Shown piece by piece: positions 1,789 through 29,945 of a stretch of DNA of 64,000 nucleotides. This DNA comes from Calditrichota bacterium (GTDB taxonomy: Bacteria; CLD3). Positions within the stretch are counted from its first letter, which is position 1, and every line of letters begins with the position of its first letter. The position numbers and the translations under genes were made by a program. Below the pieces are notes generated by a model. It had not been told where the DNA came from. It worked only from the letters and a program-made list of their open reading frames with translations, and did no database searches. The stretch covers positions 229,957 to 293,956 of the forward strand of contig QQUF01000045.1 of NCBI GenBank assembly GCA_008501735.1, given 5' to 3'.

Positions 1789-1955
1789 CTCAAAACTGAA
1801 GATTCTACCAATTTTGCAATCCAAAAAACTTATTTGCAACTAAGAACCCTTTTCCAATAATCTTTCCAAACATTTTTAACTTGAAGAATAAATTTTTTAG
1901 GTTAAATTTTCCTTTTAGCTTTACTCCTTAACCAATGTTTTCTCGGAGGAAACAA

Positions 1956-4832
1956 ATGTCAAAACTCATCAACTCACTTCTTGCAATTTCTACGCTTAGT
2001 TTAAGTTCGGTTTTTGCAAATGAAAACCCTTCACAAAATCCCGACCCAAATCACGTTCAGGGTCAAATTATTGTAAAACTTACTCACCAAATTCAGTTCC
2101 AAAAAAACGGTGAATTTCTCGAAACAGGTTATCCGTCAATCGACAAAAAACTTAGAATTTTTAAAATAAATTCTGCTCGTAAAATTTTCCCTCACCACAG
2201 AGGAAAAGTAAAAGACGGAGTTACTGACCTTTCTAAAATTTACGAATTTTCATTCGAGAAGGATTTAGACGAAAAATACATCGCTTCACTTTTTGCAAAA
2301 GATGCGAACTTTGTTTACGCCGAACCTCGTTTTATTTACCATACAGAAGAAACTCCAAACGACCCGAATTTTTTAACTTCTCAACCTTACTTGACAACAA
2401 AACTACAAGTTGAACAGGCTTGGGACGTTATTAAATCAGAAGATTCTGCTACTCCTGTAATTCTTGGAATTGTTGATTCAGGAGTTGACCTTGACCACCC
2501 AGATTTACAAGCAAATCTTTGGACTAACGACGACGAAATCGCTAACAATGGAATAGATGACGACAACAACGGATACATTGACGACACAATCGGTTGGGAT
2601 TTTACAGGAAACAGCTCAAGCAATCCAGGAGGAAATCCTGACAACGACCCAAATGACCAATTTGGTCACGGAACTCACGTTTCAGGTGATGCAGCAGCAG
2701 TTACGAATAACAACACTGGAATCGCTGGAATCGCTTGGAATCCTAAAATTATGGCAATCAAAACTGGTGCAAATTCTACCGCAATTTTTCACGGTTACGA
2801 AGGAATTGTTTACGCTGTAGAAAACGGAGCTCACATAATTAATTGTAGTTGGGGCGGAAGTGGAGGAAGTCAATTTGGTTTCGACACAATCGAATTCGCC
2901 AAAACAATGAACGTCGCAGTTGTTGCAGCAGCAGGAAACGACTCAAGCCTTGAACCACACTTTCCTTCTTCTTATCCTTCAGTTCTTTCTGTCGTAGCAA
3001 CCAACAATGTTTACTCAAAAGCAGGTTACTCTAACTTTGGAATTGATGCAGACATTTCTTGTCCTGGAACAAGTATTTCAAGTACAACAGTTGGTGGTGG
3101 TTACGGTTCTTCAAGTGGAACTTCAATGGCTTCTCCAATTGTTGCAGGAGCAGCTTGTTTGGTTCGAGCTTTACACCCAAATTGGTCAGCAATGCAAGTT
3201 CTTGAACAAGTTAGAGCAAGTGCCGATTCGGCTCTTTACCTTGTAAATCCTTCAGGAAGCGACTATTTAATGGGAAAAGGAGGATTGAACGCTTTCAGAG
3301 CAGTAACTGTTAGAACTCCTTCAATCCGAATTAATGACATCGAATTTGACGACACAATAAATGGTGATGGCGACGGAATTCTTGACCCAGGAGAGTCAAT
3401 TGATTTGAATTTGGAACTTTTTAATTTCTTAGCTGATGCACAAAACGTTACTATCGGAATTGTTTCTTCAAGCCCTTACGTTACAGTAACAACTCAGTCA
3501 ACAGTTGTCGGAAACATTGATTCTTTAAGTTCAGCAATTGCGAATCTTTCATTTGATGTTAACGCAAACGCTCCCAAAAATGCCGAAGTTCAGTTTAGAG
3601 TTTGGTTTGAAGCAACAACCTCTTTTGGTTACAACTACTACGATTTTGAACACTTTGCAGCTTTTACTCGACCAAATTTTGTAACTCATTCTAACGACAG
3701 TTTACAACTTTCTGTAACAGACGAAGCGAATTTGGGTCACGTTGACAATGCAGGTGAAAATGGCGGAGTTGGTTTCATTTTTGAAAACGGAACAGATTTG
3801 ATGTTTGAAGGTGCAATGATTATCGCAAGAAGTGCAACACAAGTCGCAGACGCTGCGAGAACTTCAGGAAGCAATCCACAAAGCACTGACTTTGCAAATT
3901 TCGGTTCGGACATTTTCCTAAATGAAAACTCAGTTGTAGCAGACCAAGAAAGCGATGTTACATTTTCAACTGTTCCAAATGCACCTCTCACAGGTCTTGA
4001 CGTAAGACAAAGAGGATTTTCTTTTACTCAAGCTCCTGACAACAAATTTGTAATTCTTCACTACGAAATTACAAACACAACAAGCCAACCAATTAACGAT
4101 GTTTACGTTGGTTACTACTTCGATTGGGACGTTGATTCGAATAATTTTGGAACGAACCAAGTTGGTTTTGATGCAGCGAATAATTTGGGTTACACTTTTG
4201 ATAATAATTTCCCTGTTTACGCAGGAATTTCAGTTCTGAATCCTGAAGGAGTTCACACTCACAGAGCAATCAGCAACCAAGACGACCTTTTTGACACTCA
4301 AGGTTTTACCGAAGCTGAAAAATTCCAATTCATTTCAGAAGGTTTGGTGAACGCAACAAGTACAGTTCAAGAAGACCAATCTGAATCAATTTCGACAGGC
4401 TCATTTAACATTTTGCCAAACGAAACAATCATTGCTTCTTTTGCAATTCTCGGTGGAAACGGCTTGGCAGAAATTCAAGGAAACGCTCTCGCAGCAGCAA
4501 CAAAGTACCAAACTATTTTGCCTTTGTTGACTTCTATTGATGGAACTGAACTGTCGTTACCAAACCAATTTAAACTTTCAAACAACTTCCCAAATCCTTT
4601 TAACCCTTCAACTGTAATTAATTACCAATTACCTGTAAGTAGCAAAGGTAAATTGGCAATTTTTAACATTTTAGGTAAAAAAGTTAAAGAGTTTGATTTG
4701 ACAGAAAAACAAGGAAACGTTGTTTGGAATGGTATTGATAATTTTGGAAACCCAGTCTCAAGCGGAACTTATTTTTACCAACTTGAATCTGGAAACAAAA
4801 TCCAAACTAAGAAAATGACTTTAATAAAATAA
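1956..4832 (+). CDS. Secreted subtilisin-like serine protease (S8) with T9SS sorting domain
   Basis: This is a cell-surface or secreted peptidase. The ATG at 1956 is preferred over the ATG at 1935 because GGAGGA (1945-1950) sits five bases before it and the product then begins with a clean signal peptide (MSKLINSLLAISTLSLSSVF). A propeptide-like region follows. The catalytic triad is visible: Asp in GIVDSGVD (about residue 174), His in FGHGTHVSG (about 238) and Ser in GTSMASP (about 390). Acidic, calcium-binding-like stretches flank the Asp. After a long beta-rich middle region the protein ends in a type A sorting domain (NNFPNPFNPSTVINY). It is 958 residues long. Its substrate cannot be inferred; it could also be a maturation protease. 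Confidence 0.92.
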   Translation: MSKLINSLLAISTLSLSSVFANENPSQNPDPNHVQGQIIVKLTHQIQFQKNGEFLETGYPSIDKKLRIFKINSARKIFPHHRGKVKDGVTDLSKIYEFSFEKDLDEKYIASLFAKDANFVYAEPRFIYHTEETPNDPNFLTSQPYLTTKLQVEQAWDVIKSEDSATPVILGIVDSGVDLDHPDLQANLWTNDDEIANNGIDDDNNGYIDDTIGWDFTGNSSSNPGGNPDNDPNDQFGHGTHVSGDAAAVTNNNTGIAGIAWNPKIMAIKTGANSTAIFHGYEGIVYAVENGAHIINCSWGGSGGSQFGFDTIEFAKTMNVAVVAAAGNDSSLEPHFPSSYPSVLSVVATNNVYSKAGYSNFGIDADISCPGTSISSTTVGGGYGSSSGTSMASPIVAGAACLVRALHPNWSAMQVLEQVRASADSALYLVNPSGSDYLMGKGGLNAFRAVTVRTPSIRINDIEFDDTINGDGDGILDPGESIDLNLELFNFLADAQNVTIGIVSSSPYVTVTTQSTVVGNIDSLSSAIANLSFDVNANAPKNAEVQFRVWFEATTSFGYNYYDFEHFAAFTRPNFVTHSNDSLQLSVTDEANLGHVDNAGENGGVGFIFENGTDLMFEGAMIIARSATQVADAARTSGSNPQSTDFANFGSDIFLNENSVVADQESDVTFSTVPNAPLTGLDVRQRGFSFTQAPDNKFVILHYEITNTTSQPINDVYVGYYFDWDVDSNNFGTNQVGFDAANNLGYTFDNNFPVYAGISVLNPEGVHTHRAISNQDDLFDTQGFTEAEKFQFISEGLVNATSTVQEDQSESISTGSFNILPNETIIASFAILGGNGLAEIQGNALAAATKYQTILPLLTSIDGTELSLPNQFKLSNNFPNPFNPSTVINYQLPVSSKGKLAIFNILGKKVKEFDLTEKQGNVVWNGIDNFGNPVSSGTYFYQLESGNKIQTKKMTLIK

Positions 4833-7057: not shown

Positions 7058-7122
7058 AACAGTTGCCAACTCAAAACTAATTGAATACTTTTGTAAGTTA
7101 TTAAATTAAATATGCATCTTAA

Positions 7123-10100
7123 ATGAAACCTGCGATTTTAATTAGTGGCGAAAAAGAACATTTAAACGTCATTAAACAATTTTCTGTTCAAGAGAATTGC
7201 GAAATTATTATTTTCAGGAATTCTTTAGTAGAAGAACTTTCCAAAGAAAATATTTCTTACATTGATTTTAATGAATTTTTGGATTCTAACGCTCAGTTTG
7301 ACACAGAAGTTTATTCTAATTCAAACTTTCAGCAATGGGTTAACTCCTTAAATTCCTATAACTTGCAAAAACAATTTTCATTTGTTGGCGAAATCTTTTT
7401 TCTCCAAATGAAAGAAATATTGGAAAAGAATTTTCAAGATGAGTTTCCTAATTTAATTTTTATAATCGAAGGTTTCAAAAAGTTACTTGAAAGTTATGAC
7501 TTAAAAGTCTCAATTTTCCAAAATGACATTTCGCCTATCAATAAAACTTTAATCCGTATTTCACAAAAATTTGAAATCCCAACTTTCTGTATTTTAGCAA
7601 ACTTCCCTGTTAATAGAATTCTTTTTGAAAAAGTAATTACTGACAAAATCGCTGTTTCAAGCGATTCAGCAAAGGATTGGTTTTTGCAAAATGGTGAAGA
7701 TGAGAGTAAATTTCTTATAACAGGAAATCCAATTTGGGACAAATTTTATAACTTCCCACTTGACAAAGAAATCGCTTGTGATGTATTAGGAATTAATTCT
7801 CAAAAACCTGTAGTTGTTTTTGCAACAGCTCGGTTAGGAACTTTGACTTTGTTTAAAGAAGAGGAAGAAATTTTAAATCGTCTCAAAAAGATATTTTTTG
7901 CCGTCAAAGAAGCACGCAAGAAATTAGACTTTGAAGTCATTTTCAAAATTCCTGAAAACGAAACGGATAAAACTATCGATAAATATTTTGCATTACTCAA
8001 AGAATGCGAAATTGGCGATGATGACTTTTTCATTTTCAAAGACGCAGACCCAATGATGATTCTTGCTTCTGCCGATTTGGTGATAAACACTCGTTCAAAT
8101 ATTTTCGGAATTGAAGCTCTTTTGGTGGGAAAAGTAGTAATTACTTTAATGAGAGACGGAGTTTTCAAAGACGGCGATGCAGTAATTTTTGCTGAAAGTC
8201 AAGAAGAGTTGACAGACTCAATCATCGAAACTTTGACTGATGAAACAATGAGTCAAAGTTTGAATGAAATTAGCTCGGAAACGATAGAAAGAATTAACCA
8301 AAACTTTGATGGAAGAGCAACTCAAAGAGTAGTAAATGAAATCAATAAAATTGCTGGTTTTCCTTCACAAAAATTTAACCTCACAAGCATAATTATAGTA
8401 ACAGAAAATAATGAAGACTCAATTCAAGATTGCATTCGAAGTATAAGAAAATATACAAGATTAGATTACGAAATTATTGTAATTGACAACAACTCTACAG
8501 ACAAAACAGTTGAAATTCTAAAATCTGAACGAAACCTAACAATCATTGAAAACTCTAAGAATTTTGGAACTGTAAGTGGATTTAATCAAGGAATAAAAGC
8601 ATCGGAAGGTGATTTTATTGTTTTCTTAAGTCCAAAAGTTAGAGTTTCTAAAAATTGGCTAACAAATTTAGTTAGCAACTTTGATGTAAAAACTGGAGCT
8701 GTTGCACCTTTGGCAAAAGTTGATTTTTCAGAACAAAATCTGAACCTTTGGTTTGATGATTCTGACAAAATCTCTGATTTTGAAAATTTGGCTGAAAACG
8801 TCAACAAACAAAATTTGGAACAAACAGAAATTGCCAATTTCCTTTTGGACTTTTGCCTCTTTACTTCACGAGAAATTTTAGAAAAAATAAACTTTTTCGA
8901 CGAAAGATTTTCCTCACTACCAAATGCGATGGATTTTGCATTAAAAGTTAGAAATTTGGATTTGACACTTTTAATTGCTAAAGATACTTTAGTTGATTTT
9001 GAACTCACAAACGTGGATTTAGAAGAAGAAATCGCAACCGAAGAATTTCAAACCCAAAGTGAAATTTTGGTTCACAAACTAAATGCGACATTTGAAATTG
9101 ATGTAACTGTTGAGCAGTTTTGGGGAATTGATTGGTTCAAAGAAAAACAGAAAGAGGAAAAAATTAGGCTCGTAAATTTAGACGATTTAGTGAGTGTAAT
9201 TGTTGAAGTTGACGAAAATTTGGATTTCACAAAAGCCTGTATTCAGAGTTTACTCGAAAATACTTCTCAAAATTACGAATTAATTTTTATTGACAATTCA
9301 AAAAATCTTGAGACTGCAAACTACCTTTTAGAACTTGAAGAATCTACTTTGATTCGTAATAAGGATAATATCAAAGCACTTAAACAAGCATTTTTGAAAA
9401 GTAGTGGCGAGTTTATACTTTTTATGCAAAATGATGTTTTGGTTTCTAAAAATTGGCTTTCTAATATTTTTAGTGAAATTACTGAAAATACTGGATTAGT
9501 AACAGCACTGTCAAACGTAGACTTTTCTTTGAGTTATGAAAATTTTGAAGATTTTAGGAAATTCCAAAACGAAATTGAAAATTCTGATAATGAAGTTGAA
9601 GAAATTGAAAATCTAAGCATTCCAATTTTTGGCACAAAAGCAAGTTTCTTGGAGAATTTTAACAAAGAAGTTTTTGAAGGAAATTTCATTGAGAATTTCC
9701 AAAATGAAGTCAAAGAAAATGGGTTTCAACTACTCTGTTCTCAAAATTCTTACGTTCATTCTCTCAAATTTCAAAACTTACTTGAGCCTGAAATTGATGA
9801 ACAAGAAGTTCTAACCAAAAAGGATAAAATTGTAGAAACTGTTGAAGAAAATGAGATAGCCGAATTTTTCGATGAAAATAACGAAAATGAACTCATTGAA
9901 GAGAGTTTAGAAACTGACGAACTCATTGAAGATTTTGAAGAACTACCAAAGAAAATTAATGAACCTGATAATATTGGTGAAATTCTTGAAGATGATGAAC
10001 AAGAAATCATTGACTCTGTTGAAACTTTTGAAGAAGAGACGAATAATGAAGAATCACTAGGGCTTGAACAAGATTCTAAAGACATTAGCAAAATTGAATC

Positions 10101-11889
10101 AGAAGTTGTTATAGAACCGAAAGGTATTAGCGAAATTGAGGATTTAATACCAGAAGTTGAAGTTCAAGACGAAACCGAAGAAGGAAATTTTGCTTTAGTT
10201 GAATGGGTTGAAGATGAAGAGGAAAATGAAGATGAAGATGAAGAGGATATTGTAAATTCTAAACCGACTTCAGAAAAAATAGACTCTTGGGAAATTAATG
10301 AAGTTGATGAAGAGAAACATAATCTTATCATTTTAGAAGACGACAATCTAAAGAATGAAGAAATCCACGATGATGAAACCAAAGCTGTTGAAGTAGAAAC
10401 TTTTGACGAAATTGAAATTCTTGAAGAAAAAATTAAAAATGAAGATTCGACTAAAGAAGAAAATGATGTTAAGGAAATCCACGATGATGAAGCCAAAGTT
10501 GTTGAAGTAGAAACTTTTGATGAAATTGAAATTCTTGAAAAAAAAATTAAAAATGAAGATTCGACTAAAGAAGAAAATGATGTTAAGGAAATCCAAAATG
10601 AAGAACAATCAGAAACATTAGAAGAAATTGGTGAAAAAGATTCGACTCTGAAAAAGAAGATTATCTCTTTTGACGCTTTCAAACAAGAAGAGAAAGAAGA
10701 AGAGAATTTTGACATAACTAATGAAGAAATTCCTGAACTCAAAGAAGCTATGTTTGACGAGCTAAAAGAATCTCTATCTAAAGACCAAGAAGAACTTAAG
10801 TCAGAAGAGATTGCGAAAGAAAAAATCCAACTTATCGAACCAATTAACGAAGAGATTCCCGAGACAGAAAATGAATCTGAGCCAATAAACATTGTAAGTG
10901 CTTTTGAAGCTCAAGAAGAAAACTCAGAAACTGAAAAAATGGATTTAGCAGAAGTTGAAAATGAATTTAGAGTACAAAGACTAAATTTATTTACAAATGC
11001 AAATTCCGAAGAAGAAATTGCTGAAATGATGCAATTGTTTACAAAAATTAAAGACATTTTCCCTAAAACTAAATTCTTCTTTACAAGCAAATTGATTGAA
11101 GAAAGTGTTGAGAATTTTCAAGAATTTAATGCAGGTTTAGTAAGTATTGGAATCCATTTTGTGATGCTTTCTGCGGTAAATGATGCTCTAAAAATTACAG
11201 ATTTGTTTTTAAATCAAAAGTCTATACAGTTACCTGAAGGATTTTCTATTCCCGAAATTGAAATCAGTTTGAACGAAAAAGATAATTTTGTAAAAATCAA
11301 AATTTTACATTCCCTTTTCCCATCTAAGAAGAATGTTAAGGAAAGTGAGAAAAATGTTTCTTTAACAGCTTGTTTGCTAACTTATAACTCTGAAGAAACT
11401 CTTAAGCTATGCCTTGAAAGCATTAATGAGTTTGCTCAAGAAATAATAATTATCGACGTTGGCTCATACGACAATACTTTTGAAATTGCCAAAGATTTTG
11501 GTGCTAAAGTCTTACACTTTGAAGTCGAAGAAGAAATTTCAACTTCTCGAAATAAAGCAATAAGTGAAGCAACAAAAGATTGGATTCTTTTTATAGAGCC
11601 TGACCAAATTATTCACCAAAATGATATTGATAAACTCAAAAGTCTGATGTCAAAATCTACCTTTAATGCTTTTACAGTAATTGAAAAGTCTGAAAATGGT
11701 TTTAGCGAAAGTTGTAGAATTTTCAAAAGAGATTCGAGATACTTTTTCCAATCAAATGACATAAATGGAATTTTGCCTTCTATAAAAGGTTTAAGACATA
11801 ATATTTTGGATACAACAATCGAATTTGAGAACATTGAGAATAAACCTCAGAGTTCACTTTCCAAAATATTAAGTTTCATTAAAAAATAA
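7123..11889 (+). CDS. Giant multidomain glycosyltransferase (GT-B-like, GT2 modules, acidic repeat region)
   Basis: This 1588-residue protein has an unusual architecture. Residues 1-420 resemble a GT-B CDP-glycerol transferase or UDP-GlcNAc epimerase fold (ITGNPIWDKF, VVVFATARLG, MILASADLVINT, FGIEALL). A GT2 module starts near 420 (SIIIVTENN, IVIDNNSTDKT), but the place where DxD or NPDxxV is expected reads SPKVRV. A second, weaker GT2-like module starts near 687 (YELIFIDNS, FMQNDVLV). Residues about 905-1270 are extremely acidic, low complexity and contain tandem repeats. A C-terminal GT2 module from about 1412 (LTACLLTYNSEETL, IIIIDVGSYDNT, ILFIEPDQII) resembles WaaE/KdtX-like transferases. 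There is no signal peptide or membrane segment, so it is probably cytoplasmic. It likely assembles a surface glycan; donor and acceptor are unknown. Confidence 0.8.
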   Translation: MKPAILISGEKEHLNVIKQFSVQENCEIIIFRNSLVEELSKENISYIDFNEFLDSNAQFDTEVYSNSNFQQWVNSLNSYNLQKQFSFVGEIFFLQMKEILEKNFQDEFPNLIFIIEGFKKLLESYDLKVSIFQNDISPINKTLIRISQKFEIPTFCILANFPVNRILFEKVITDKIAVSSDSAKDWFLQNGEDESKFLITGNPIWDKFYNFPLDKEIACDVLGINSQKPVVVFATARLGTLTLFKEEEEILNRLKKIFFAVKEARKKLDFEVIFKIPENETDKTIDKYFALLKECEIGDDDFFIFKDADPMMILASADLVINTRSNIFGIEALLVGKVVITLMRDGVFKDGDAVIFAESQEELTDSIIETLTDETMSQSLNEISSETIERINQNFDGRATQRVVNEINKIAGFPSQKFNLTSIIIVTENNEDSIQDCIRSIRKYTRLDYEIIVIDNNSTDKTVEILKSERNLTIIENSKNFGTVSGFNQGIKASEGDFIVFLSPKVRVSKNWLTNLVSNFDVKTGAVAPLAKVDFSEQNLNLWFDDSDKISDFENLAENVNKQNLEQTEIANFLLDFCLFTSREILEKINFFDERFSSLPNAMDFALKVRNLDLTLLIAKDTLVDFELTNVDLEEEIATEEFQTQSEILVHKLNATFEIDVTVEQFWGIDWFKEKQKEEKIRLVNLDDLVSVIVEVDENLDFTKACIQSLLENTSQNYELIFIDNSKNLETANYLLELEESTLIRNKDNIKALKQAFLKSSGEFILFMQNDVLVSKNWLSNIFSEITENTGLVTALSNVDFSLSYENFEDFRKFQNEIENSDNEVEEIENLSIPIFGTKASFLENFNKEVFEGNFIENFQNEVKENGFQLLCSQNSYVHSLKFQNLLEPEIDEQEVLTKKDKIVETVEENEIAEFFDENNENELIEESLETDELIEDFEELPKKINEPDNIGEILEDDEQEIIDSVETFEEETNNEESLGLEQDSKDISKIESEVVIEPKGISEIEDLIPEVEVQDETEEGNFALVEWVEDEEENEDEDEEDIVNSKPTSEKIDSWEINEVDEEKHNLIILEDDNLKNEEIHDDETKAVEVETFDEIEILEEKIKNEDSTKEENDVKEIHDDEAKVVEVETFDEIEILEKKIKNEDSTKEENDVKEIQNEEQSETLEEIGEKDSTLKKKIISFDAFKQEEKEEENFDITNEEIPELKEAMFDELKESLSKDQEELKSEEIAKEKIQLIEPINEEIPETENESEPINIVSAFEAQEENSETEKMDLAEVENEFRVQRLNLFTNANSEEEIAEMMQLFTKIKDIFPKTKFFFTSKLIEESVENFQEFNAGLVSIGIHFVMLSAVNDALKITDLFLNQKSIQLPEGFSIPEIEISLNEKDNFVKIKILHSLFPSKKNVKESEKNVSLTACLLTYNSEETLKLCLESINEFAQEIIIIDVGSYDNTFEIAKDFGAKVLHFEVEEEISTSRNKAISEATKDWILFIEPDQIIHQNDIDKLKSLMSKSTFNAFTVIEKSENGFSESCRIFKRDSRYFFQSNDINGILPSIKGLRHNILDTTIEFENIENKPQSSLSKILSFIKK
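10360..10605 (+). repeat. 114-bp in-frame tandem repeat, two full copies plus a partial third
   Basis: Units start at 10360, 10474 and 10588, a period of 114 bases (38 codons), and the first two are almost identical. Each encodes a unit beginning EIHDDE, followed by VEVETFDEIEILE and then NEDSTKEENDVK. The third unit begins EIQNEE and diverges after a few codons. The array lies inside the acidic linker of the large glycosyltransferase, about residues 1080-1160. Confidence 0.9.
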
Positions 11890-11976: not shown

Positions 11977-12894
11977 ATGAAAAAAATCATTTTACCAATT
12001 TTATTTACGATTTTACCAACTTTTGCTTTTTCGCAAGGAACTACTGTTTATGAAATTTTAAAGACACCTGGTTCTCCACAAATTTCTGCTTTGGGAGGAG
12101 CTTTTTATTCGTATCAAGGAAATATCAGTAACATTTTTGCAAACCCTGCTGGTTTAGCACAGTTGCAAAGTTCTGCTCTTATGGCGAATTATTCTAATGA
12201 AGTTTTGGATTTTACAGCTGGAAATATTGCATTTGCAAAACCATTTAATCACGGCGTTTTTGGAATTTCGATGCGTTACAGAGACTACGGTGAATTTGAC
12301 AGAAAAGATGAGAAGGGCAACTTAATCGGTGGGAATTTTGACGCTTATGAATACGTTTTTACAGGAGCTTTGGCTCAAAAATTTTTAGACAATTTTACTT
12401 ACGGACTTAATTCAAAAATTGTAATTGGAAAAGTTGCAGATGCTCGGTCTGCTGCTTTAGTTTTTGATTTAGGTGGAACTTACACTTGGCGAAATCAAAA
12501 TTTGACTTTCGGTGGTGGAATCTTTGATTTCGGAAGCCAAATTAACGAATACAGTAAAACTCGCGAAGACTTACCTTCTAACGCTCAAATTGAAATCGGC
12601 AAAAAATTAGCTCACTTACCTCTCACAATTTCATACAACAACAGATATTATTTTTATGATAAAGAATATGAATTTTCAGTTGGACTTCAATTCGACATTG
12701 GAAATTCTTTTGACTTTCGCTTAAGTTATGATTCAACTGGTTCAGATAAAGATTTGGGCTTTGGCTCAAGCAAATTTGCAGGAATCTCATTTGGTTTTGG
12801 AATAACAAAAGCTGGTTTTACTTTCGATTATTCAGGAACTTCTTGGGGCGAAATTGGATTTCAAAACAGATTTGGAATCTCAAAAACTTTCTAA
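11977..12894 (+). CDS. PorV/PorQ-family outer-membrane beta-barrel protein, probably PorQ-like
   Basis: The ATG at 11977 gives a classic signal peptide (MKKIILPILFTILPTFAFSQ); the TTG at 11929 would add 16 residues that do not look like part of a signal. The mature protein starts with the PorV/PorQ-type segment SPQISALGGAFYSY, followed by NIFANPAGLAQL. It continues with alternating beta strands to a C-terminal aromatic residue (FGISKTF), as in outer-membrane barrels. In FCB bacteria PorQ and PorV belong to or assist the type IX secretion system, which fits the sorting-domain proteins in this window. It could instead be another member of the FadL-like UPF0164 group. Confidence 0.72.
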   Translation: MKKIILPILFTILPTFAFSQGTTVYEILKTPGSPQISALGGAFYSYQGNISNIFANPAGLAQLQSSALMANYSNEVLDFTAGNIAFAKPFNHGVFGISMRYRDYGEFDRKDEKGNLIGGNFDAYEYVFTGALAQKFLDNFTYGLNSKIVIGKVADARSAALVFDLGGTYTWRNQNLTFGGGIFDFGSQINEYSKTREDLPSNAQIEIGKKLAHLPLTISYNNRYYFYDKEYEFSVGLQFDIGNSFDFRLSYDSTGSDKDLGFGSSKFAGISFGFGITKAGFTFDYSGTSWGEIGFQNRFGISKTF

Positions 12895-14105: not shown

Positions 14106-15275
14106 TTGACTTCAAATAAAATCCCACGAAATCCGCAAGACGATTATTCTGACGCAATTGTTAATAATCGTCTCAGTTTTCTAACTGAAAAAACAGGCAC
14201 AAACTTTAGCTACCTCAAAGGGAAACTTGTCGAGAACTCTTTTGCAAAAGGAAACGTTGAAAATTTTATTGGTTACGCTCAAGTTCCAATTGGAATTGCT
14301 GGACCTTTAAAAATTAATGGAGACTTTGCACAAGGTGATTTTTACGTTCCCTTAGCAACAAATGAAGGTGCAATGGTTGCATCTTTTTCAAGAGGAATGA
14401 AAATCGCAAGCCTGTCAGGTGGAATTACAACAAAAGTCCTTTTAGACCTTTACCGTGTAAACCCAATGTTAATTTTTGATTCACTTTCAAGTGCAACAAA
14501 AGCAAAAATTTGGATTGAAGAAAATTTCAACTCTTTACAAAAGGAAGTTGAAAAGACTTCAAACTTTTGCAGACTTGAAAAACAAAAGATTACAATTCTT
14601 GGTCGAAGATTAATACTTTCACTCGCTTTCAAAACTGGCGATGCTTTAGGTGCAAATATGGCAACCAAAGCAACTCAAGTAGTTTTAGATTTCTTAGTAA
14701 AAAATTTGGAAATAGAAAATTACTTGATTCACGGTCAGGATTTGGAAAAAAGACCAAGTGGAAGGAATTTGATTGAAGGAAGAGGAAAATTCGTTACAGC
14801 TGAAATCAAAATTAGCAAAGATACTTTAGAGGAAAAATTAAAAGTAACCGCTAAACAGCTTTCAGACGTTTGCGAATCTTACTTCATTGGTTACTCTCAC
14901 CTTCTAACAATGTCTAATCATTTACAAACTGCAAATTTACTCGCAGCAATTTTTATCGCTTGCGGGCAAGACGTTGCTTACGTAGCTGAAAGCATTGTCG
15001 GAACAATGTCATTCGAGGACTGTGAAGACGGAAGTTTAATCGCTTCGTTGACTTTGCCAGCTTTACTTGTTGCAACTGTTGGAGGTGGAACAAACAAAGG
15101 AACTTCTGCCGAATGTCTTACAATTATGGATTGCTTGGGAAAAGGTAAAGCGAGGAAATTTGCTGAAATAGTTTGTGCTTCTGCACTTTGTGGCGAACTT
15201 TCATTGGCTGTTGCAATGATTAAAAAAGATTTGGTTGACGCTCACGAAAAGCTAAATCGAAATCGTCCAAGTTAA
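14106..15275 (+). CDS. hmgA: Hydroxymethylglutaryl-CoA reductase, class I type
   Basis: It interconverts HMG-CoA and mevalonate using NAD(P)H, the committed step of the mevalonate pathway. The class I catalytic residues can all be placed: Glu87 in ATNEGAMVAS, Lys215 in DLEKRPSGRN, Asp289 in CGQDVAYVAES and His380 in DAHEKLNRN. IGIAGPL and GDALGANMATKATQ mark the substrate and nucleotide sites. At 389 residues it is a catalytic domain only, without membrane segments. No ATG exists before the conserved region; the frame opens at ATT 14103 or TTG 14106, just after the rhodanese stop, with no SD sequence. Its presence beside the MEP gene ispE in this genome is notable. Confidence 0.93.
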   Translation: MTSNKIPRNPQDDYSDAIVNNRLSFLTEKTGTNFSYLKGKLVENSFAKGNVENFIGYAQVPIGIAGPLKINGDFAQGDFYVPLATNEGAMVASFSRGMKIASLSGGITTKVLLDLYRVNPMLIFDSLSSATKAKIWIEENFNSLQKEVEKTSNFCRLEKQKITILGRRLILSLAFKTGDALGANMATKATQVVLDFLVKNLEIENYLIHGQDLEKRPSGRNLIEGRGKFVTAEIKISKDTLEEKLKVTAKQLSDVCESYFIGYSHLLTMSNHLQTANLLAAIFIACGQDVAYVAESIVGTMSFEDCEDGSLIASLTLPALLVATVGGGTNKGTSAECLTIMDCLGKGKARKFAEIVCASALCGELSLAVAMIKKDLVDAHEKLNRNRPS

Positions 15276-15457: not shown

Positions 15458-18400
15458 TTATTTTAAAAACATCAATTTTTTCACTTCTACAAAATCTTTT
15501 GCTTCAATTTTGTAAAAGTAAACTCCACTTGAAACTAAGTTTCCAGCAGAATTTCTTCCGTCCCAAACTACTTTGTAAAAAGCAGCAGGAAGGTTTTCAT
15601 TCACTAAAGTTTTAACTTCTCTTCCGAGAATGTCATAAATGACAAGTTTAGTAAAACGAGATTCTTTTAAACCAAACTCAATGTTTGTTTGTGGATTAAA
15701 AGGATTTGGGTAATTTTGGCTCAAACTAAACTCTTCAGGAATTATATTTGAAGTTGGTTCTATTGAAGCAGTAAAACAATCTACTGTTAAATTCACATTA
15801 AAAGGAGTGTTTGGTGAGTTGTTACCAATTTCTAAAACGCCATTAAAAACTCCTATTAAATCAGAGTAAAATGCAATCTCTACTGCTTGAGAATCACCAG
15901 CTGAAATGATAAACGGCGGAACAATACTACTTTGCGATAAAGTAAAAACTGTAGTTCCTGTAAAGGTTAAATCAGTAACATTCAAAGGAGCTGTTCCAGT
16001 ATTGTGAATCATTAAATTTTTAATATCTAATGTTCCTGTTAATACATCTCCAAAATCTAAGTCATTTGCAGAAATAATTGGAGCTCCAGTCGAAACTCCT
16101 GGGGTTCCAACTTGTAAATTTCCAGGTTCAGATTCAGTGTTTGTTCCATTCACATCGTAAACGGCAGTAACTGCGTAACTGTACTGATTTGGATTAATCA
16201 CTGTAAAATCATCAAAGTTTTGAGCTGTTCCAGTATAAATTACACTTCCGTTTGTTACAACTTCATTTGAATTTTGAGCCGCTCCATTAGTTTTGTAAAG
16301 CTTGTATTCAACCAAGTTCCAAGTTGGAGTTAAGCTAATTTTAGCCGTTCCTTTTTTACTAACAATTTTTTTCGCTGATTTTTTAGCAAGAAACTTTGAT
16401 TTTGAAAGAGCTGTTTTTTTCAAAATTGTTTTCGGTGCTACAACAATCGGCGAAACTGTAATCGGTTCAACAAAACAACGAATCATTGGAATTACTTGAC
16501 CATAAGAAGTCGCGAAAAATTCAACAGGTTCCCAAGCAGTCCCAACTCCTTGCAAAAAGTGAGTGTCGTTGTTGAAAGTGTAAGGTGGATTTAAGCTCGT
16601 GTCTCCACCAAGTGAAATTTTGTCGTTTGTAATCTGCTCTACTCCAACACAGAACTCTCCATTTCCAACGTTAATTCCTAAACCAGTAACTGGGTCTGTG
16701 AAATCAAATTCAATGAAATCTCCAGTTGTTCCACTTTGGTCAAAAGGTCCAATTTCAGTGATTAAGTTTCCAGGAATGTTGTTAGCCGAATCAAATTGAT
16801 AAATCTTAACATTGTATTCACTTGTTGCGAGTGCATTGTTGGTGATGTAAATTTTTACAGAGGTGAGTTGTGCATTTCCAGAAATTTGAGTTTGGTTTGC
16901 AATATCAAATTTGGTGGCAAAAGAAGCTGCTCCTGGACTGTTTAGTCCCGGAGGAGAATTTGGAAAAATAGAAATAAATTCACTTGACCCATCGTCATAC
17001 TTTAGTTGAATTCCATTTTCGCCAGGTTCTTCCCAACTTAGTGGAATGAAGTCTGGAATCAAAGATTCAGCTGTCAAAGTTCCAGGAGTTACTAACCTAA
17101 CGTCAAAAGTAAAAGGAGAACCAGTTTGGTTCACTGGGTCGTAAGGAAAGTAAGCAATGTTTTGGCTGTAATCCTCAACACTTACAAAGTACTCATAAGC
17201 CAATCCAAACTGATTCGGTGCTGCAATTTGAGCAAAGAAGGTATCGTTAGAAGTAATAGTCATCGGAATAACGTTGTAAGTTGTGCCAGTAGAGAATTTC
17301 CAATTTAAAGTAACGTTATTTGGGTCAATCCCTGAAAGCCCGTCAGAAGCGTGAAGATAAATGTCAAATGATTGGTCGTGAACATCAGTGTCTCCGATTT
17401 CTGTTACAAAGTCAATAATTGGAGGATAAGTATCAACAGTCGTAATTCTCACACTTAAATTGCTATCCACAAAAGGCTCATTGTAAGCAATTTGCAAACC
17501 GTCACTTGCAGTTGCATCTTCAATTCCAACAGTTAATGGATTAGACAAATTCGTAGAATTCATATTTTCATAATTTATATCAATTCTACCGTCAGGATAA
17601 AGAATAACTTGGAAAGTATTCGATAAACTCTCACCTGAGCGTTCTACTTCATTCCATTGAATAATTACTCTACTATTCAAAGAGTCATTAAACCAAAACA
17701 TATTTGATAAACCACCGTCAACAGTCAAGTTTGTCCAAAATGGTGCTATGAAATCATTTGGGTCAATTGTGCTTGGAATTGGGTCATTTGAAAAATCTGT
17801 TCCGTCCGAGCCAAAAGTTATGTAACCATTGCTTGAGACAAGTGCAGTTGTGTAATTATTCCCATAAAATGGGAAACTCCAAGGCAAAGTTAAAGTTCCA
17901 GCAACATTACTTCCTGTAACTCCGAAAGTAATTCCTGTTTGAGCAATATTTTCAAAAACTGCTGGAATAGAATTATTTAAACTACTAATCCAACTGTGTC
18001 CAAAAGTATCTGGTCCTCCAGAAGACAAAACAACATCAGTGTTTATCGAACCGATTGCACTAACATTTGGGTCACCGATTGAGGTAACTGTCAAAGTTGC
18101 ATTATCAATAGGAATTGTAGCTCCGATTGGAACCATAATTTCAACATCAATTGTTGTAGAGTTTCCAGCAGTTACAAGTGGTGTTTGTGCGATTGGACTA
18201 CCATTTTGTAAAATCTGACCAGAGAAAGCGGTGTTCAAATTTAAAGTGTAAGTGTCGTCGTTAAGCCCAAGATTCTGAATTGTAATTGAGTAAGTTTCAG
18301 TTGCATCTTCTGGAGCAGAGCCATTTAAAGTACTTGGAACTAAGTTTACAAAATAATTTGGTGCATCACCGACAAAGAAATCATCGATTGCCATATCGCT

Positions 18401-21400
18401 TGTAAAAGAAATTCCTGTAATTGCACGTAAACGAACTCGAATTTGATTTCCAAAAGCTGATAAATCTACAACTTTCTGCAACCACGGATCATTACTTGCT
18501 GTTTGTTGTTGACCAACTAATGGAGCAGAAACATCAAGAGTCCAATTCCCAGTTGTAAAATCAAAAACATCAACGTGCAAAGATCCCATTGTAGCTCCGT
18601 ACATATGATACCAAAACCTTGCTTGTGGAACCGTTAGTAAAGATAAGTCCAAACAAGGTGAAACTAAATGAGCAGTTTGATTGTTAAAACTTGAAGTTTC
18701 TGTATAAAGATAATTTCCTGTTCCAGTTGTGTGGTCGCCACTTGGTCCAGTGTCTTGTGAAGAAGTTCCATTTGCATCAACAGTCCAATCCATTTGGTCA
18801 TCAGTTGCATTTTCCCAACCTTGTGGAGTTAAAGTTAGTGGAGCTGTAAAAGCATCAAAGTTTTCATTTAAAGGAAAACTATTCACACAAGTCGCAAAGG
18901 CTGTTACATCTGCTGTAACTGTTTTAGTTGTTGTTGGATCTCCTACTGAAGTTATAAGAACACTAAAATTATCAATTTGCCCAACTGTTGCTGTTCCGGG
19001 AATTGTTACCTCAACGTTAAAGAAAGTAGAATCACCAGGATTCACATTACCAGTGTTCGTAATTGGAGTTCCATTTTGTAAAATCGATGCAGTAAAAGTA
19101 TTTCCGCTAACTTGCAAGTCATAGCTGTCAATTTGAGTTCCAAGATTTTCAACTTTGACTTGGAAATTTGCAATTCCTCCCAAAGGACCATTTGCACTTA
19201 TGTTTAAAGGATTAATACTGTAAAAGAAATCAGGTGCTTCACCAAGAAAAATGTCGTCAATTGCAAAATTGTCAAACATTGCTGTTGCTGAAACAGTTCC
19301 GTTTGTTCTAAATCTCAGCCTAAAAAAAGAGTGTAATCCATTTTGTGGAATACTAGTAATTACTTGGGTAAAGGAAGTTTCTTGAGTACTATTTCCTTCA
19401 ATTGCAGCATTTGGAACTTGTTGCCAAACACCAGTGTTATCCAAATATTCTGCTCTCAAAAATTCATTTGCATCAGGTGCTTCTACTGATGCTCCTCTTT
19501 CATAAGAGAACCAAAGTTGAACATTTGTTAGAGCTGAAAGGTCAAAAACTCCTGTTACAATTGTATCACCACCTGTTGGAGTGCTGTTCAAGTGCAAAGC
19601 GTGAGTTCCTGAAGGTGGATTTGGAGCAATTGTATTTACATAACCATTTGGGTCAGTTTGTGAAGAGTCAATCCAAACTAATGGATTTAAACTGCCACTT
19701 TCAAAGTCATCAATTAAAGGTAAAAGTCCTGGATTTAAGACAAATGTTGTTAAATCTGTAGAAGCATCAACCGTTGGGTCAGTATCTGAAATTGCTGTCA
19801 AAGTCAAAAGGTTTAAATCACCACTGTTAGCAGTTGCCGGGATAATAACAGAAACTTCTACGTCAATTTGTTGACCCGAATTTAGAATTGGAGTTTGCGT
19901 TGTAATTTGCCCATTTATCAAAAATGAGTTTGTGTAAGTTCCACCAGTCGTTGCAAGTGTATAAGAATCCGCTTGAGTTCCTGCATTTGTCAAAGTCAAA
20001 TTGTAAGTTGTTGTACCTCCAGAAGCTCCGTAAAGAGTCTGATTCGGTGGATTAAGGCTAACATAATAAGCAGAAACTGGTTTTATCGTTGGTCTCATCA
20101 TCCAATCGCCAGTTTCATCAGGATTAAAATTATTAGCAAAATTTGTAGCTTGCCAAGCAACATTCGGCATACAAGAATTTGCACCTGCGACAGGAGCATT
20201 TCCGTCAATCCCAAGAGTAACACCTGTTTCAAACATATAAAAAACTGTGAAAGGTGAATTTACAATTATATCTGGAACGTCATAATTATTCCAACCAGTT
20301 ACAGCATTCGCCAAAGTATCTGACCAAATCAAAGTGTTTGGTTCACCATTTGGTCCGTCATTCAAAAATAATCTTAAATCCGCTGTTCCGCTACCACCAA
20401 AGAAGTAGTGTAAACTATCCACTGAAACTGGAAAAGAACAAGGTGAGTATTGAAGTCCCCAACCACTTCCTACAGAAAATTGAAAGTTTGTTGTTGCAAC
20501 TCCTCCGTCATAACTAAGTTGAGTTGGATTATTTATTGTTGTTACATATTGCTCCAAAGTAGAAATATTATTTCCAAAATTTTGATCATTTGGAGAAACA
20601 ACAGTTGCAGTTACTGTATAACGACTGTCATTTGTTGGAATCCAAGAAGTTGAAGCAGTTGCTGTTATTTTTTGTCCAGACGCAATTGGTCCAAAGCTTT
20701 CTGTAATATTAAATACTGTACTTGAAGCAATGTCGTCAACAACTTGCCAACTTACTGTAAAAACTGAATCAGTAGCATTTCCTAAATTTTCAACTTCAAC
20801 TGTAAAAGAAGGATTATCAGTAATGCAAAGATGAAATTTTCCAATGTCATTTCCTACACAATTTGTTTGTAAATCAACAAAATTACCTGTAAAAGCTCCT
20901 CCAGCGCGAATAAAAGCATCACCGCTTGCGACTGACCAAGGACCTCCTGTTAAATTTGTAGAAGTTCTTGTTCTTTGTGTAGAGGTCGAACCATCAAGTA
21001 AATTCCACCAACCTGTTCCACTTGGATAAGCTCCTCCAACTGTCGGACCATAAATTATGTGAAAATCTGAATTTGCAGTAATTGCCACGCCAGGAACAAC
21101 TTCAACATCAAACCAAGGAAACCCACTTGGTAAAGGAGCAGGAACATTAAAAGGTCCAGCAATTGCAGTTCCAGGACTTCCCAAAAGGTCATTGTAAACC
21201 CAGAAAGTCGCCCCTGCAGTTGTATTATTATTTTGGTTTAAAAGACGACAATAAATGGAATTTAAAGTGAAGTCTTGTGGTGCAGTAAACCTCGTTGAAG
21301 TCCAAAGTCCTGTTGTTGTATTCAATGAAGAAGGTTGGTCGTCATCATAAAAAAGAGTATCAGGTTGAGGAGAAAAAATCTGATTTACATTGCTTGATTT

Positions 21401-21508
21401 TGGACTAATACTTTCTAAAATTACTGTTTGAACTTCACCAGCAAGAGCAAAATTACTTAAGCAAAAGGTGCTTAATAGGAGTGTTAAAAAAACATAACTT
21501 TTTTTCAT
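15458..21508 (-). CDS. Very large secreted multidomain protein with T9SS sorting domain
   Basis: The start is supported by GGAGGA (15515-type position 21515-21520 on the minus strand) and a signal peptide (MKKSYVFLTLLLSTFCLSNF). The 2016 residues contain at least three similar immunoglobulin-like units, recognisable by TQIDSYDLQVSG-type starts and TVTSIGDPN-type ends. These alternate with MAM/jelly-roll-like units (DDFFVGDAPNYF, DDIFLGEAPDFF). Fibronectin III-like units follow, one with a lysine-rich insert near residues 1690-1715. The end is a type A sorting domain (LSQNYPNPFNPQTNIEF, VSSGVYFYKIEAKDF). It is probably a surface adhesin or structural protein exported by T9SS. No catalytic site is seen. 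Confidence 0.9.
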   Translation of the reverse strand: MKKSYVFLTLLLSTFCLSNFALAGEVQTVILESISPKSSNVNQIFSPQPDTLFYDDDQPSSLNTTTGLWTSTRFTAPQDFTLNSIYCRLLNQNNNTTAGATFWVYNDLLGSPGTAIAGPFNVPAPLPSGFPWFDVEVVPGVAITANSDFHIIYGPTVGGAYPSGTGWWNLLDGSTSTQRTRTSTNLTGGPWSVASGDAFIRAGGAFTGNFVDLQTNCVGNDIGKFHLCITDNPSFTVEVENLGNATDSVFTVSWQVVDDIASSTVFNITESFGPIASGQKITATASTSWIPTNDSRYTVTATVVSPNDQNFGNNISTLEQYVTTINNPTQLSYDGGVATTNFQFSVGSGWGLQYSPCSFPVSVDSLHYFFGGSGTADLRLFLNDGPNGEPNTLIWSDTLANAVTGWNNYDVPDIIVNSPFTVFYMFETGVTLGIDGNAPVAGANSCMPNVAWQATNFANNFNPDETGDWMMRPTIKPVSAYYVSLNPPNQTLYGASGGTTTYNLTLTNAGTQADSYTLATTGGTYTNSFLINGQITTQTPILNSGQQIDVEVSVIIPATANSGDLNLLTLTAISDTDPTVDASTDLTTFVLNPGLLPLIDDFESGSLNPLVWIDSSQTDPNGYVNTIAPNPPSGTHALHLNSTPTGGDTIVTGVFDLSALTNVQLWFSYERGASVEAPDANEFLRAEYLDNTGVWQQVPNAAIEGNSTQETSFTQVITSIPQNGLHSFFRLRFRTNGTVSATAMFDNFAIDDIFLGEAPDFFYSINPLNISANGPLGGIANFQVKVENLGTQIDSYDLQVSGNTFTASILQNGTPITNTGNVNPGDSTFFNVEVTIPGTATVGQIDNFSVLITSVGDPTTTKTVTADVTAFATCVNSFPLNENFDAFTAPLTLTPQGWENATDDQMDWTVDANGTSSQDTGPSGDHTTGTGNYLYTETSSFNNQTAHLVSPCLDLSLLTVPQARFWYHMYGATMGSLHVDVFDFTTGNWTLDVSAPLVGQQQTASNDPWLQKVVDLSAFGNQIRVRLRAITGISFTSDMAIDDFFVGDAPNYFVNLVPSTLNGSAPEDATETYSITIQNLGLNDDTYTLNLNTAFSGQILQNGSPIAQTPLVTAGNSTTIDVEIMVPIGATIPIDNATLTVTSIGDPNVSAIGSINTDVVLSSGGPDTFGHSWISSLNNSIPAVFENIAQTGITFGVTGSNVAGTLTLPWSFPFYGNNYTTALVSSNGYITFGSDGTDFSNDPIPSTIDPNDFIAPFWTNLTVDGGLSNMFWFNDSLNSRVIIQWNEVERSGESLSNTFQVILYPDGRIDINYENMNSTNLSNPLTVGIEDATASDGLQIAYNEPFVDSNLSVRITTVDTYPPIIDFVTEIGDTDVHDQSFDIYLHASDGLSGIDPNNVTLNWKFSTGTTYNVIPMTITSNDTFFAQIAAPNQFGLAYEYFVSVEDYSQNIAYFPYDPVNQTGSPFTFDVRLVTPGTLTAESLIPDFIPLSWEEPGENGIQLKYDDGSSEFISIFPNSPPGLNSPGAASFATKFDIANQTQISGNAQLTSVKIYITNNALATSEYNVKIYQFDSANNIPGNLITEIGPFDQSGTTGDFIEFDFTDPVTGLGINVGNGEFCVGVEQITNDKISLGGDTSLNPPYTFNNDTHFLQGVGTAWEPVEFFATSYGQVIPMIRCFVEPITVSPIVVAPKTILKKTALSKSKFLAKKSAKKIVSKKGTAKISLTPTWNLVEYKLYKTNGAAQNSNEVVTNGSVIYTGTAQNFDDFTVINPNQYSYAVTAVYDVNGTNTESEPGNLQVGTPGVSTGAPIISANDLDFGDVLTGTLDIKNLMIHNTGTAPLNVTDLTFTGTTVFTLSQSSIVPPFIISAGDSQAVEIAFYSDLIGVFNGVLEIGNNSPNTPFNVNLTVDCFTASIEPTSNIIPEEFSLSQNYPNPFNPQTNIEFGLKESRFTKLVIYDILGREVKTLVNENLPAAFYKVVWDGRNSAGNLVSSGVYFYKIEAKDFVEVKKLMFLK

Positions 21509-27773: not shown

Positions 27774-29945
27774 CTAACTAATCGCAATAAGTGGTGCAAT
27801 TACTAAAGCAACTACACTCATAAGTTTCAATAAAATATTCAAAGATGGTCCAGAAGTATCTTTGAAAGGGTCACCAACAGTGTCACCAACAACAGCAGCT
27901 TTGTGAGGTTCTGAACCTTTTTGGTATTTTACTCCGTCAATCTCAACACCTTCCTCAAAAGATTTTTTTGCATTATCCCAAGCTCCACCAGCATTTGATT
28001 GGAAAATCGCCATCAAGACACCACAAACTGTAACACCTGCCAAAAGTCCACCAAGAGTTTCGGGTCCAAAAACAAACCCAACAATAACAGGTGAAGCAAT
28101 TGCTAAAAGTCCTGGCATTACCATTTCTTTAATCGCAGCTTTTGTTGAGATTGCAACACATTTTGCGTATTCAGCTTTTCCATCAGCAGCATCATAAATC
28201 TTTTTCTCAGCAGCAGAAAATTTGGAAACATCACTATCGTGTTTTCTCATCACTTCTAAAGCTGCTTTAAGTTCAGGGATATTTTTAAATTGTCTTCTTA
28301 CTTCATCAATCATTGCCATTGCAGCACGACCAACTGCTCCCATTGCCATTGCAGAGAAAACGAAAGGAAGCATTCCACCAACAAAAAGCCCAGCCATTAC
28401 AGTTGGATTTGAAATGTCTATTTTAGAAATATTTGCCTGTTGCATAAAAGCTGAGAAAAGTGCCAAAGCTGTAAGAGCCGCAGAACCGATTGCAAACCCT
28501 TTTCCGATTGCAGCAGTTGTGTTTCCAACAGCATCGAGTTTGTCTGTTCTTTGTCTAACTTCTTTTGGGAGTTCAGCCATTTCAGCAATTCCACCAGCAT
28601 TGTCAGAAATTGGTCCGTAAGCATCAACAGCTAATTGGATTCCTGTATTTGCAAGCATTCCAACAGCCGCAATTCCGATTCCATAAAGTCCAGCTACTGA
28701 ATAGGCTCCAATAATTGCCGCAGCAATCAATAAAATTGGAATTGCTGTGGAAACCATTCCGACTCCCAAACCAGCAATAATGTTAGTTGCTGCTCCAGTT
28801 TTTGATTGAGCAATAATTGAATTAACAGGACCTTTTCCCATAGCACAATAATGCTCGGTAACAAGTCCAATTAAAACTCCTGCAACAAGTCCGATTACTG
28901 TCGCTCCGAAAACACCAAGTGCAGTGTAATCAGTGCCACCGAAAGTCCAAGTTTCAGGGAGAATCATTGAAATTAAACCATAAATCACTGCAATCATAAT
29001 TGCAGAAGAGCCAAATTCACCTTTGTTCAATGCCACTTGTGGATCGCCACCTTCTTTCACTGAAACCATAAAAGTTCCAATAATTGAAATGATAATTCCA
29101 GCTCCAGCAATAACCATTGGGAGAATTACAGCAGAAAGTCCACCAAATCCGTCGTTTTGTAATGCTGGAATAAATGCAGCTCCAAGAACCATCGAACCAA
29201 CAATTGAACCAACATATGATTCAAAAAGGTCAGCTCCCATTCCGGCAACATCACCAACGTTGTCTCCAACGTTGTCAGCGATTGTAGCAGGATTCAAAGG
29301 ATGATCTTCAGGAATTCCGGCTTCAACTTTTCCTACAAGGTCAGCACCAACGTCAGCAGCTTTTGTATAAATTCCGCCACCAACACGTGCAAAAAGTGCA
29401 ATCGAAGAAGCACCAAGTGAGAATCCAGAAAGAACATTTAGTACTTTTATTGTGCTCCACTCAGCACCAAACATACTTGAATAAACTAAAAATAAAGTTC
29501 CGAGTCCAATAACTCCAAGCCCAACAACAGAAAGTCCCATTACAGAACCGCCTGTAAAAGCGATATTTAAAGCAGGTGCTAAACCTGTTCTTGCAGCGTG
29601 AGTTGTTCGGTTGTTACTTTTTGTAGCAACTTGCATTCCCAAAAATCCAGCTAAACCAGAACAAAATGCTCCAACTACAAATGAAAGAGCAACTAAAGGA
29701 CTTGAGTCTGTACTACCTGCATTTGCGAATCCAAGCAAAACTGCAACTGCAATAACAAAAATTGCAAGCACTTTGTATTCAGCTTGTAAGAAAGCCATTG
29801 CACCTTCGGCAATTGCTTTTCCGATTTTCTTCATTGAGTCTGTACCTTCATCTTGCTTAGAAATCCAAGCAGATTTGGTAAAGGCGTAAAGCAAAGCGAT
29901 AACTCCTGCAACTATCACAGAAATATTGTAGCTCATTATGTCCAT
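27774..29945 (-). CDS. hppA: Membrane-bound cation-pumping pyrophosphatase
   Basis: It couples hydrolysis of pyrophosphate to H+ or Na+ export across the cytoplasmic membrane. The substrate-site motifs are intact: [20 protein letters not shown] and [19 protein letters not shown]. About 16 hydrophobic segments fill the 723 residues. The segment [10 protein letters not shown] has alanine where potassium-independent enzymes have lysine, indicating the K+-dependent subclass, which includes the Na+ pumps. The pumped ion is not settled by inspection. GGAGA lies eight bases before the start. The gene is downstream of pth in the same direction. Confidence 0.95.

Follow-up and report, generated by a model that had tools for sequence, protein, structure and literature searches.

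The window analysed here is a 64,000-nucleotide stretch of contig QQUF01000045.1 from a Calditrichota bacterium. Positions 7123-11889 of its forward strand hold a single open frame of 1588 codons, as the first-pass annotation had proposed, and the two other forward frames of this region contain 118 and 233 stops. The DNA of the gene is 30% GC, yet all 1588 codons are free of stops. A trmL-like gene and aroK lie upstream of it, while a porQ-like gene, a TPR gene and an HMG-CoA reductase gene follow downstream. In a single search with a concatenated query, the reductase gene (14106-15275) gave no match in the genome that carries the orthologue described below. The 1588-residue protein shows neither a signal peptide nor a membrane span, and its best 19-residue hydropathy segment (1.62) lies within the GT-B fold. 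A sequence of the Bacteroidota promoter type (TTG-N20-TAnnTTTG, 7063-7093) is located 30 bp upstream of the gene. We do not claim it as a promoter, as the motif is not enriched at gene starts of the window (2 of 42, against about 3 expected).

The protein is built of four glycosyltransferase (GT) modules, an acidic linker and a small domain, in the order GT-B, GT2-1, GT2-2, linker, small domain and GT2-C (Table 1). The Pfam family PF00535 is matched three times (1.8e-57), with 94.8 bits for GT2-1, 53.4-53.8 bits for GT2-2 and 67.0-67.2 bits for GT2-C against a cut-off of 23.3, which assigns all three modules to the GT2 family. Residues 1-415, searched alone, match PF02350 (Epimerase_2) with 38.8 bits, above the curated cut-off of 30.6. 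The combination of a GT-B domain with three GT2 modules had already been recognized from the sequence, with module boundaries that are correct within about 20 residues. The small domain at residues 1283-1410 is an addition to that layout.

Table 1 Features of the multi-module gene and its downstream neighbour, in window positions.
Feature	Position	Strand	Basis
Complete coding sequence, multi-module glycosyltransferase-like protein, 1588 aa	7123..11889	+	Open frame; orthologue with same order
GT-B domain, Epimerase_2/Capsule_synth type, residues 1-415; HP motif deleted	7123..8367	+	PF02350; 7 homologues; distant homologues
GT2 module 1 (GT2-1), residues 418-640	8374..9042	+	PF00535 94.8 bits; pLDDT ~90; motif columns
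SPKVRV, former DxD (NPDxxV-type) site of GT2-1, residues 503-508	8629..8646	+	Aligned column, 42 GT2 domains
GT2 module 2 (GT2-2), residues 684-895	9172..9807	+	PF00535 53.4-53.8 bits; pLDDT ~80; motif columns
Acidic low-complexity linker, residues 896-1282	9808..10968	+	Composition; orthologue comparison
114-bp (38 aa) tandem duplication in linker, copy 1	10360..10473	+	TRF
114-bp tandem duplication in linker, copy 2	10474..10587	+	TRF
Small alpha/beta-looking domain without known relatives, residues 1283-1410	10969..11352	+	31% identity to orthologue
C-terminal GT2 module (GT2-C), GmaR/SunS-like, residues 1411-1588	11353..11886	+	PF00535 67.2 bits; GmaR 22ao 3.5e-19; alignment
porQ-like gene (type IX secretion outer-membrane protein)	11977..12894	+	NF033709, NF033711; adjacency in second genome

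Epimerase_2 is a GT-B-fold family, and the corresponding region of the orthologue matches PF05159 (Capsule_synth) with 26.5 bits, above the cut-off of 20. In the window protein the HP motif of this domain is deleted. The sequence reads KIPENE where the orthologue reads KVHPSE, and the His-Pro pair is retained in all seven other aligned GT-B homologues. AlphaFold2 models the domain with pLDDT values of 55-75 in parts and low values elsewhere, so that of the GT-B fold first proposed, the Pfam match is firm and the predicted structure only moderate. Distant homologues of the domain in other phyla stand alone or are joined to other domains. One of them, encoded on the reverse strand in a genome of another phylum (L059:3843-6674, genome G158), is fused to a methyltransferase and TPR repeats. 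No GT99 chain is found among the matches of the GT-B sequence to solved structures at E up to 1. Relatives were looked for in viral contigs and none were found, and extra searches in small phyla returned only the earlier matches and a few weak ones.

The GT folds of the two central modules hold on structure prediction. An AlphaFold2 model of residues 1-895, built with nine sequences, has a mean pLDDT of 64, rising to about 90 in GT2-1 and about 80 in GT2-2. The top PDB matches of this model in Foldseek are the E. coli K4 chondroitin polymerase K4CP (E 5.8e-17) and the Pasteurella heparosan synthase PmHS2 (E 5.1e-14), followed by GalNAc-transferases. The TM-scores of these matches are low, because the query aligns only partly and the modules are placed differently. 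Homology between GT2-1 and GT2-2 is clear (hhalign 99.6%). Residues 1267-1588 yield no confident fold with AlphaFold2 (mean pLDDT 37.6). At the level of profile and sequence matches, the GT2 identity of the C-terminal module is nevertheless firm, and its closest solved-structure sequences are GmaR (PDB 22ao, 3.5e-19) and SunS (7msn, 7msp).

We compared the active sites with 42 other GT2 domains of the class, a reference that includes related genomes and is therefore not fully independent. The third position of the DxD motif is Asp in 42 of 42 domains, Lys in GT2-1 of the window protein and Glu in GT2-1 of the orthologue. This site is the SPKVRV sequence, which lies exactly where the first reading of the gene had placed it. 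The base position (xED) is acidic in 34 of the 42 domains, and reads N-A in GT2-1 and F-I in GT2-2. The C-terminal His of GT2-1 is lost in both orthologues, as aligned by eye. With S-P-K, N-A and F-E-L at the three sites, GT2-1 lacks the DxD, xED and C-terminal His of an active enzyme, and the suspicion that this module is inactive is supported. GT2-2 is less altered: it retains QND, with the third Asp of the DxD motif, and VH, but has lost xED and the Asp of STD. The orthologue carries PND and VH in GT2-2, in addition to the HP motif of its GT-B domain.

GT2-C also keeps the third Asp of DxD when aligned with the class domains. Against five relatives, aligned by eye and with an uncertain tail, D-A-D is replaced by E-P-D and I-H-E by I-N-G, and the terminal His is missing (FEN), which leaves the module without D-x-D, H-E or C-terminal His. 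The H-E pair itself is present in three of the five relatives and absent from two. The description of this module as an ordinary WaaE-like enzyme does not survive these substitutions. Judged from the alignments, departures from the canonical active-site motifs touch all four modules, an observation that is new here, and no module of the window protein carries a complete canonical set. A processive surface-glycan polymerase, one of two roles suggested in the first-pass annotation, is not supported, because all three GT2 modules have incomplete motifs. The other role, a scaffold whose inactive modules would bind acceptors, remains plausible.

The long acidic linker noted earlier extends from residue 896 to about 1290 and consists of 28% Glu and 9% Asp, with a net charge of about -110. 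No other stretch in the 20 window proteins compared is as acidic; the linker carries 40 net negative charges per 100 residues (runner-up 23). The two copies of the 114-bp duplication are identical at 110 of 114 positions (4 differences), and this 38-residue tandem duplication is recent. In the orthologue the linker has a length of about 50 residues, which makes the window linker roughly eight times longer. The small domain that follows is conserved in the orthologue at 31% identity, where it forms the C-terminus. It has no Pfam match at E up to 10, and we rejected the idea that it is half of a GT-B fold, as hhalign against GT-B gives a probability of 0.9%.

The protein is present in two of nine genomes of the class, which belong to the same family and to different genera, and is absent from the seven others. 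The orthologue is encoded in a metagenome-assembled genome (bacterium isolate SJ803, G001:C180, JADZEA010000180.1) as a protein of 1060 residues in one frame, with GT-B, two GT2 modules, linker and small domain in the same order and without the C-terminal GT2 module. This rules out an assembly fusion, in agreement with the original view of a single gene. The fusion is real and common to both genomes, which differ in linker length and in the fourth module. The domain order had been called unusual, and among the 386 genomes searched the GT-B/GT2 fusion was indeed seen only in these two; for distant GT-B relatives, the check covered the eight best matches, by Pfam or domain coverage.

Identity between the two proteins declines along the chain, from 50% in GT-B to 43% in GT2-1, 36% in GT2-2 and 31% in the small domain. 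In all three modules compared by codon position, differences peak at third positions and are lowest at second positions (0.38/0.23/0.53 in GT-B, 0.49/0.31/0.59 in GT2-1 and 0.51/0.34/0.64 in GT2-2, for positions 1/2/3). About 13 internal indels separate the orthologues in residues 1-895, and all are in frame. As a pattern of substitutions, this shows protein-level constraint since the split of the two genera, measured over the whole interval and not on the window's branch alone, where selection may have been released recently. The codon composition of GT2-C matches that of the rest of the gene (GC3 0.22). An origin of this module by recent duplication within the genome is rejected, as its nearest relative there is just 30% identical. 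A phage or plasmid origin of the gene was likewise discarded: viral contigs hold no GT-B relative, and no plasmid or phage record covers 80% of the orthologue.

The porQ-like gene downstream passes the cut-off of NF033709 (PorV_fam) and scores 155.6 bits with NF033711 (PorQ), below the equivalog cut-off of 220. It is the best PorQ match of its genome (141.7 bits, next 94.3), which contains about ten further PorV/PorQ-like genes. In the second genome the GT gene again lies directly 5' of the porQ orthologue (66% identical), and aroK and the TPR gene are found on other contigs with different neighbours. In two genomes of another family in which the porQ neighbourhood was read, porQ adjoins ccmC-like genes and no GT gene. 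Adjacency alone is a weak argument, because UbiA and its next gene form another local pair kept in both genomes. In neither genome is the multi-module gene directly flanked by other glycan genes. In Porphyromonas gingivalis, secreted proteins are joined to A-LPS by an attachment complex that includes PorQ, and PorQ is required for that step (PMC5562754). A link between the window protein and such an anchoring glycan is attractive, and adjacency in two genomes hints at it.

The layout resembles several multi-module synthases. WbbB of Klebsiella O12 and Raoultella terrigena (GT99, GT102 and GT103; PMC9587256, PMC11231755) also has an N-terminal GT-B-type module, a spacer and two more GTs, and a role in surface-glycan assembly; the likeness is one of architecture. 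In WbbB all three modules are active and the first is an unusual GT-B Kdo transferase, whereas the window protein starts with an Epimerase_2/Capsule_synth-like domain, has lost motifs, and adds an acidic tether after the third module and a fourth module. K4CP and PmHS2 share the tandem pair of GT-A modules. These enzymes have two active sites, while GT2-1 of the window protein has lost all three catalytic motifs, and the extra GT-B domain, linker and C-terminal GT2 have no counterpart in them. Both folds are also fused in O-antigen GTs, such as the GT2-GT4 and GT4-GT2 proteins of an Azospirillum plasmid, a methyltransferase-GT4-GT2 protein of Paraburkholderia and ORF6 of Klebsiella O7 (PMC11231755). 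These differ from the window protein in the type of GT-B domain and in module order. The Azospirillum and Klebsiella genes sit among sugar-nucleotide and ABC-transporter genes, neighbours that the window gene lacks. We know of no comparable acidic linker in this group.

Loss of catalytic motifs within a retained GT fold has precedent. COSMC (C1GALT1C1), a GT31 homologue with a GT-A fold that lacks DxD and xED, is catalytically inactive and serves its active relative as scaffold and chaperone (PMC7185993). It is a single-domain eukaryotic protein of another GT family, so that the likeness is in principle only. GmaR of Listeria and SunS, the solved-structure sequence matches of GT2-C, stand outside the multi-module proteins, and the DADE site of GmaR reads EPDQ in GT2-C.

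Our preferred reading, with a probability of about 0.45, is a multi-module glycosyltransferase homologue for surface-glycan assembly (LPS/O-antigen or capsule-type) that is probably cytoplasmic and may now serve mainly as a binding scaffold. The surface-glycan part of this reading comes from the resemblance to WbbB, K4CP and the O-antigen multi-module GTs, and a binding role is suggested because the motifs have eroded while the folds are retained. The ancestor would have joined a capsule/epimerase-type GT-B to a tandem GT2 pair, as in bifunctional polysaccharide synthases. The catalytic residues of GT2-1 were presumably lost ahead of the split between the two known lineages. In the window lineage, GT-B and GT2-2 would then have lost motifs too; here the linker, roughly eight times longer, forms an acidic tether, and the chain ends in a fourth GT2 module, either gained in this lineage or lost in the other. 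Binding of nucleotide sugar, acceptor glycan or partner enzymes may persist in the folded modules, and any remaining catalysis would be confined to GT2-2 or GT2-C. More speculatively, the glycan could be what the type IX secretion attachment complex that contains PorQ uses as its anchor. We hold the probability at this level because GT-A enzymes may lose DxD and stay active: GT14 and prokaryotic GT6 have lost the motif and show metal-independent activity, and the Asp of xED is absent from several inverting families (PMC7185993).

The existence of such DxD-less enzymes also lends some weight to a synthase that is still active, in which GT2-2 and/or GT2-C would transfer sugars through non-canonical residues, GT-B would prime or terminate the chain, and the linker would just set a distance, like the helical spacer of WbbB. 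The QND and VH of GT2-2, the EPD of GT2-C, the better-preserved motifs of the orthologue and an architecture comparable to K4CP and to WbbB, with its spacer between GT99 and two GTs (PMC9587256), are all compatible with activity. We nevertheless consider it doubtful, since none of the GT2 modules has the full DxD, base and His set, the GT-B domain lacks a motif that every aligned homologue retains, and GT2-1 carries Lys at an otherwise invariant Asp. If the ancestral enzyme were no longer needed, its motifs would erode under relaxed selection, the linker would gain low-complexity sequence, and the frame would be open by chance. The greater motif loss of the window copy relative to the orthologue, its expanded and recently duplicated linker, and the declining conservation of the later modules would all follow. 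Such decay is unlikely, however, given 1588 stop-free codons in AT-rich DNA, in-frame indels, the codon-position pattern and GT folds that continue to give good scores (GT2-1 and GT2-C, 67-95 bits).

Two narrower variants of a binding role were also weighed. The protein may be a dedicated pseudo-glycosyltransferase, with four non-catalytic GT modules on an acidic tether forming a multi-site scaffold that holds glycan intermediates, or the enzymes that build the lipid-linked sugar of the PorQ-containing attachment complex. We regard this as quite unlikely. Such a protein would amount to a bacterial version of COSMC built of several domains. Listeria GmaR is both a GT2-type glycosyltransferase and an antirepressor that binds the MogR repressor (PMC9638930). 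As the best solved-structure match of GT2-C it raises the idea of a regulator or protein-binding factor on GT folds, whose partners would be components of the envelope or of secretion, such as the PorQ-linked system, with the tether as an interaction arm. Proximity to porQ in both genomes would agree with this. The GmaR match, however, falls on the GT2 part, and GT2 is a very large family. PorQ resides in the outer membrane, a different compartment, and a conserved pair is not rare, as UbiA demonstrates, which makes such a factor improbable.

The preferred reading, a synthase homologue turned mainly into a scaffold, places the protein within a known kind, the multi-module glycosyltransferases; what is new is the way the modules are combined, the acidic tether, and the loss of motifs from each module. 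In known members, each step of the assembly line has its own active site. Four GT folds kept, with motifs lost module by module and a tether that lengthens, provide a test case for binding-only retention in bacteria. As the change has reached different stages in the two orthologues, the sequence of steps can be put to the test. The adjoining porQ offers a specific but weakly supported connection to the anchoring of secreted proteins at the cell surface. Elsewhere, the window encodes a membrane H+-translocating pyrophosphatase (27774-29945) and four large proteins, each with a C-terminal sorting domain for type IX secretion (31-1788, 1935-4832, 15458-21508 and 38576-40765), one of which is a subtilase and another a protein of 2016 residues with a MAM domain.
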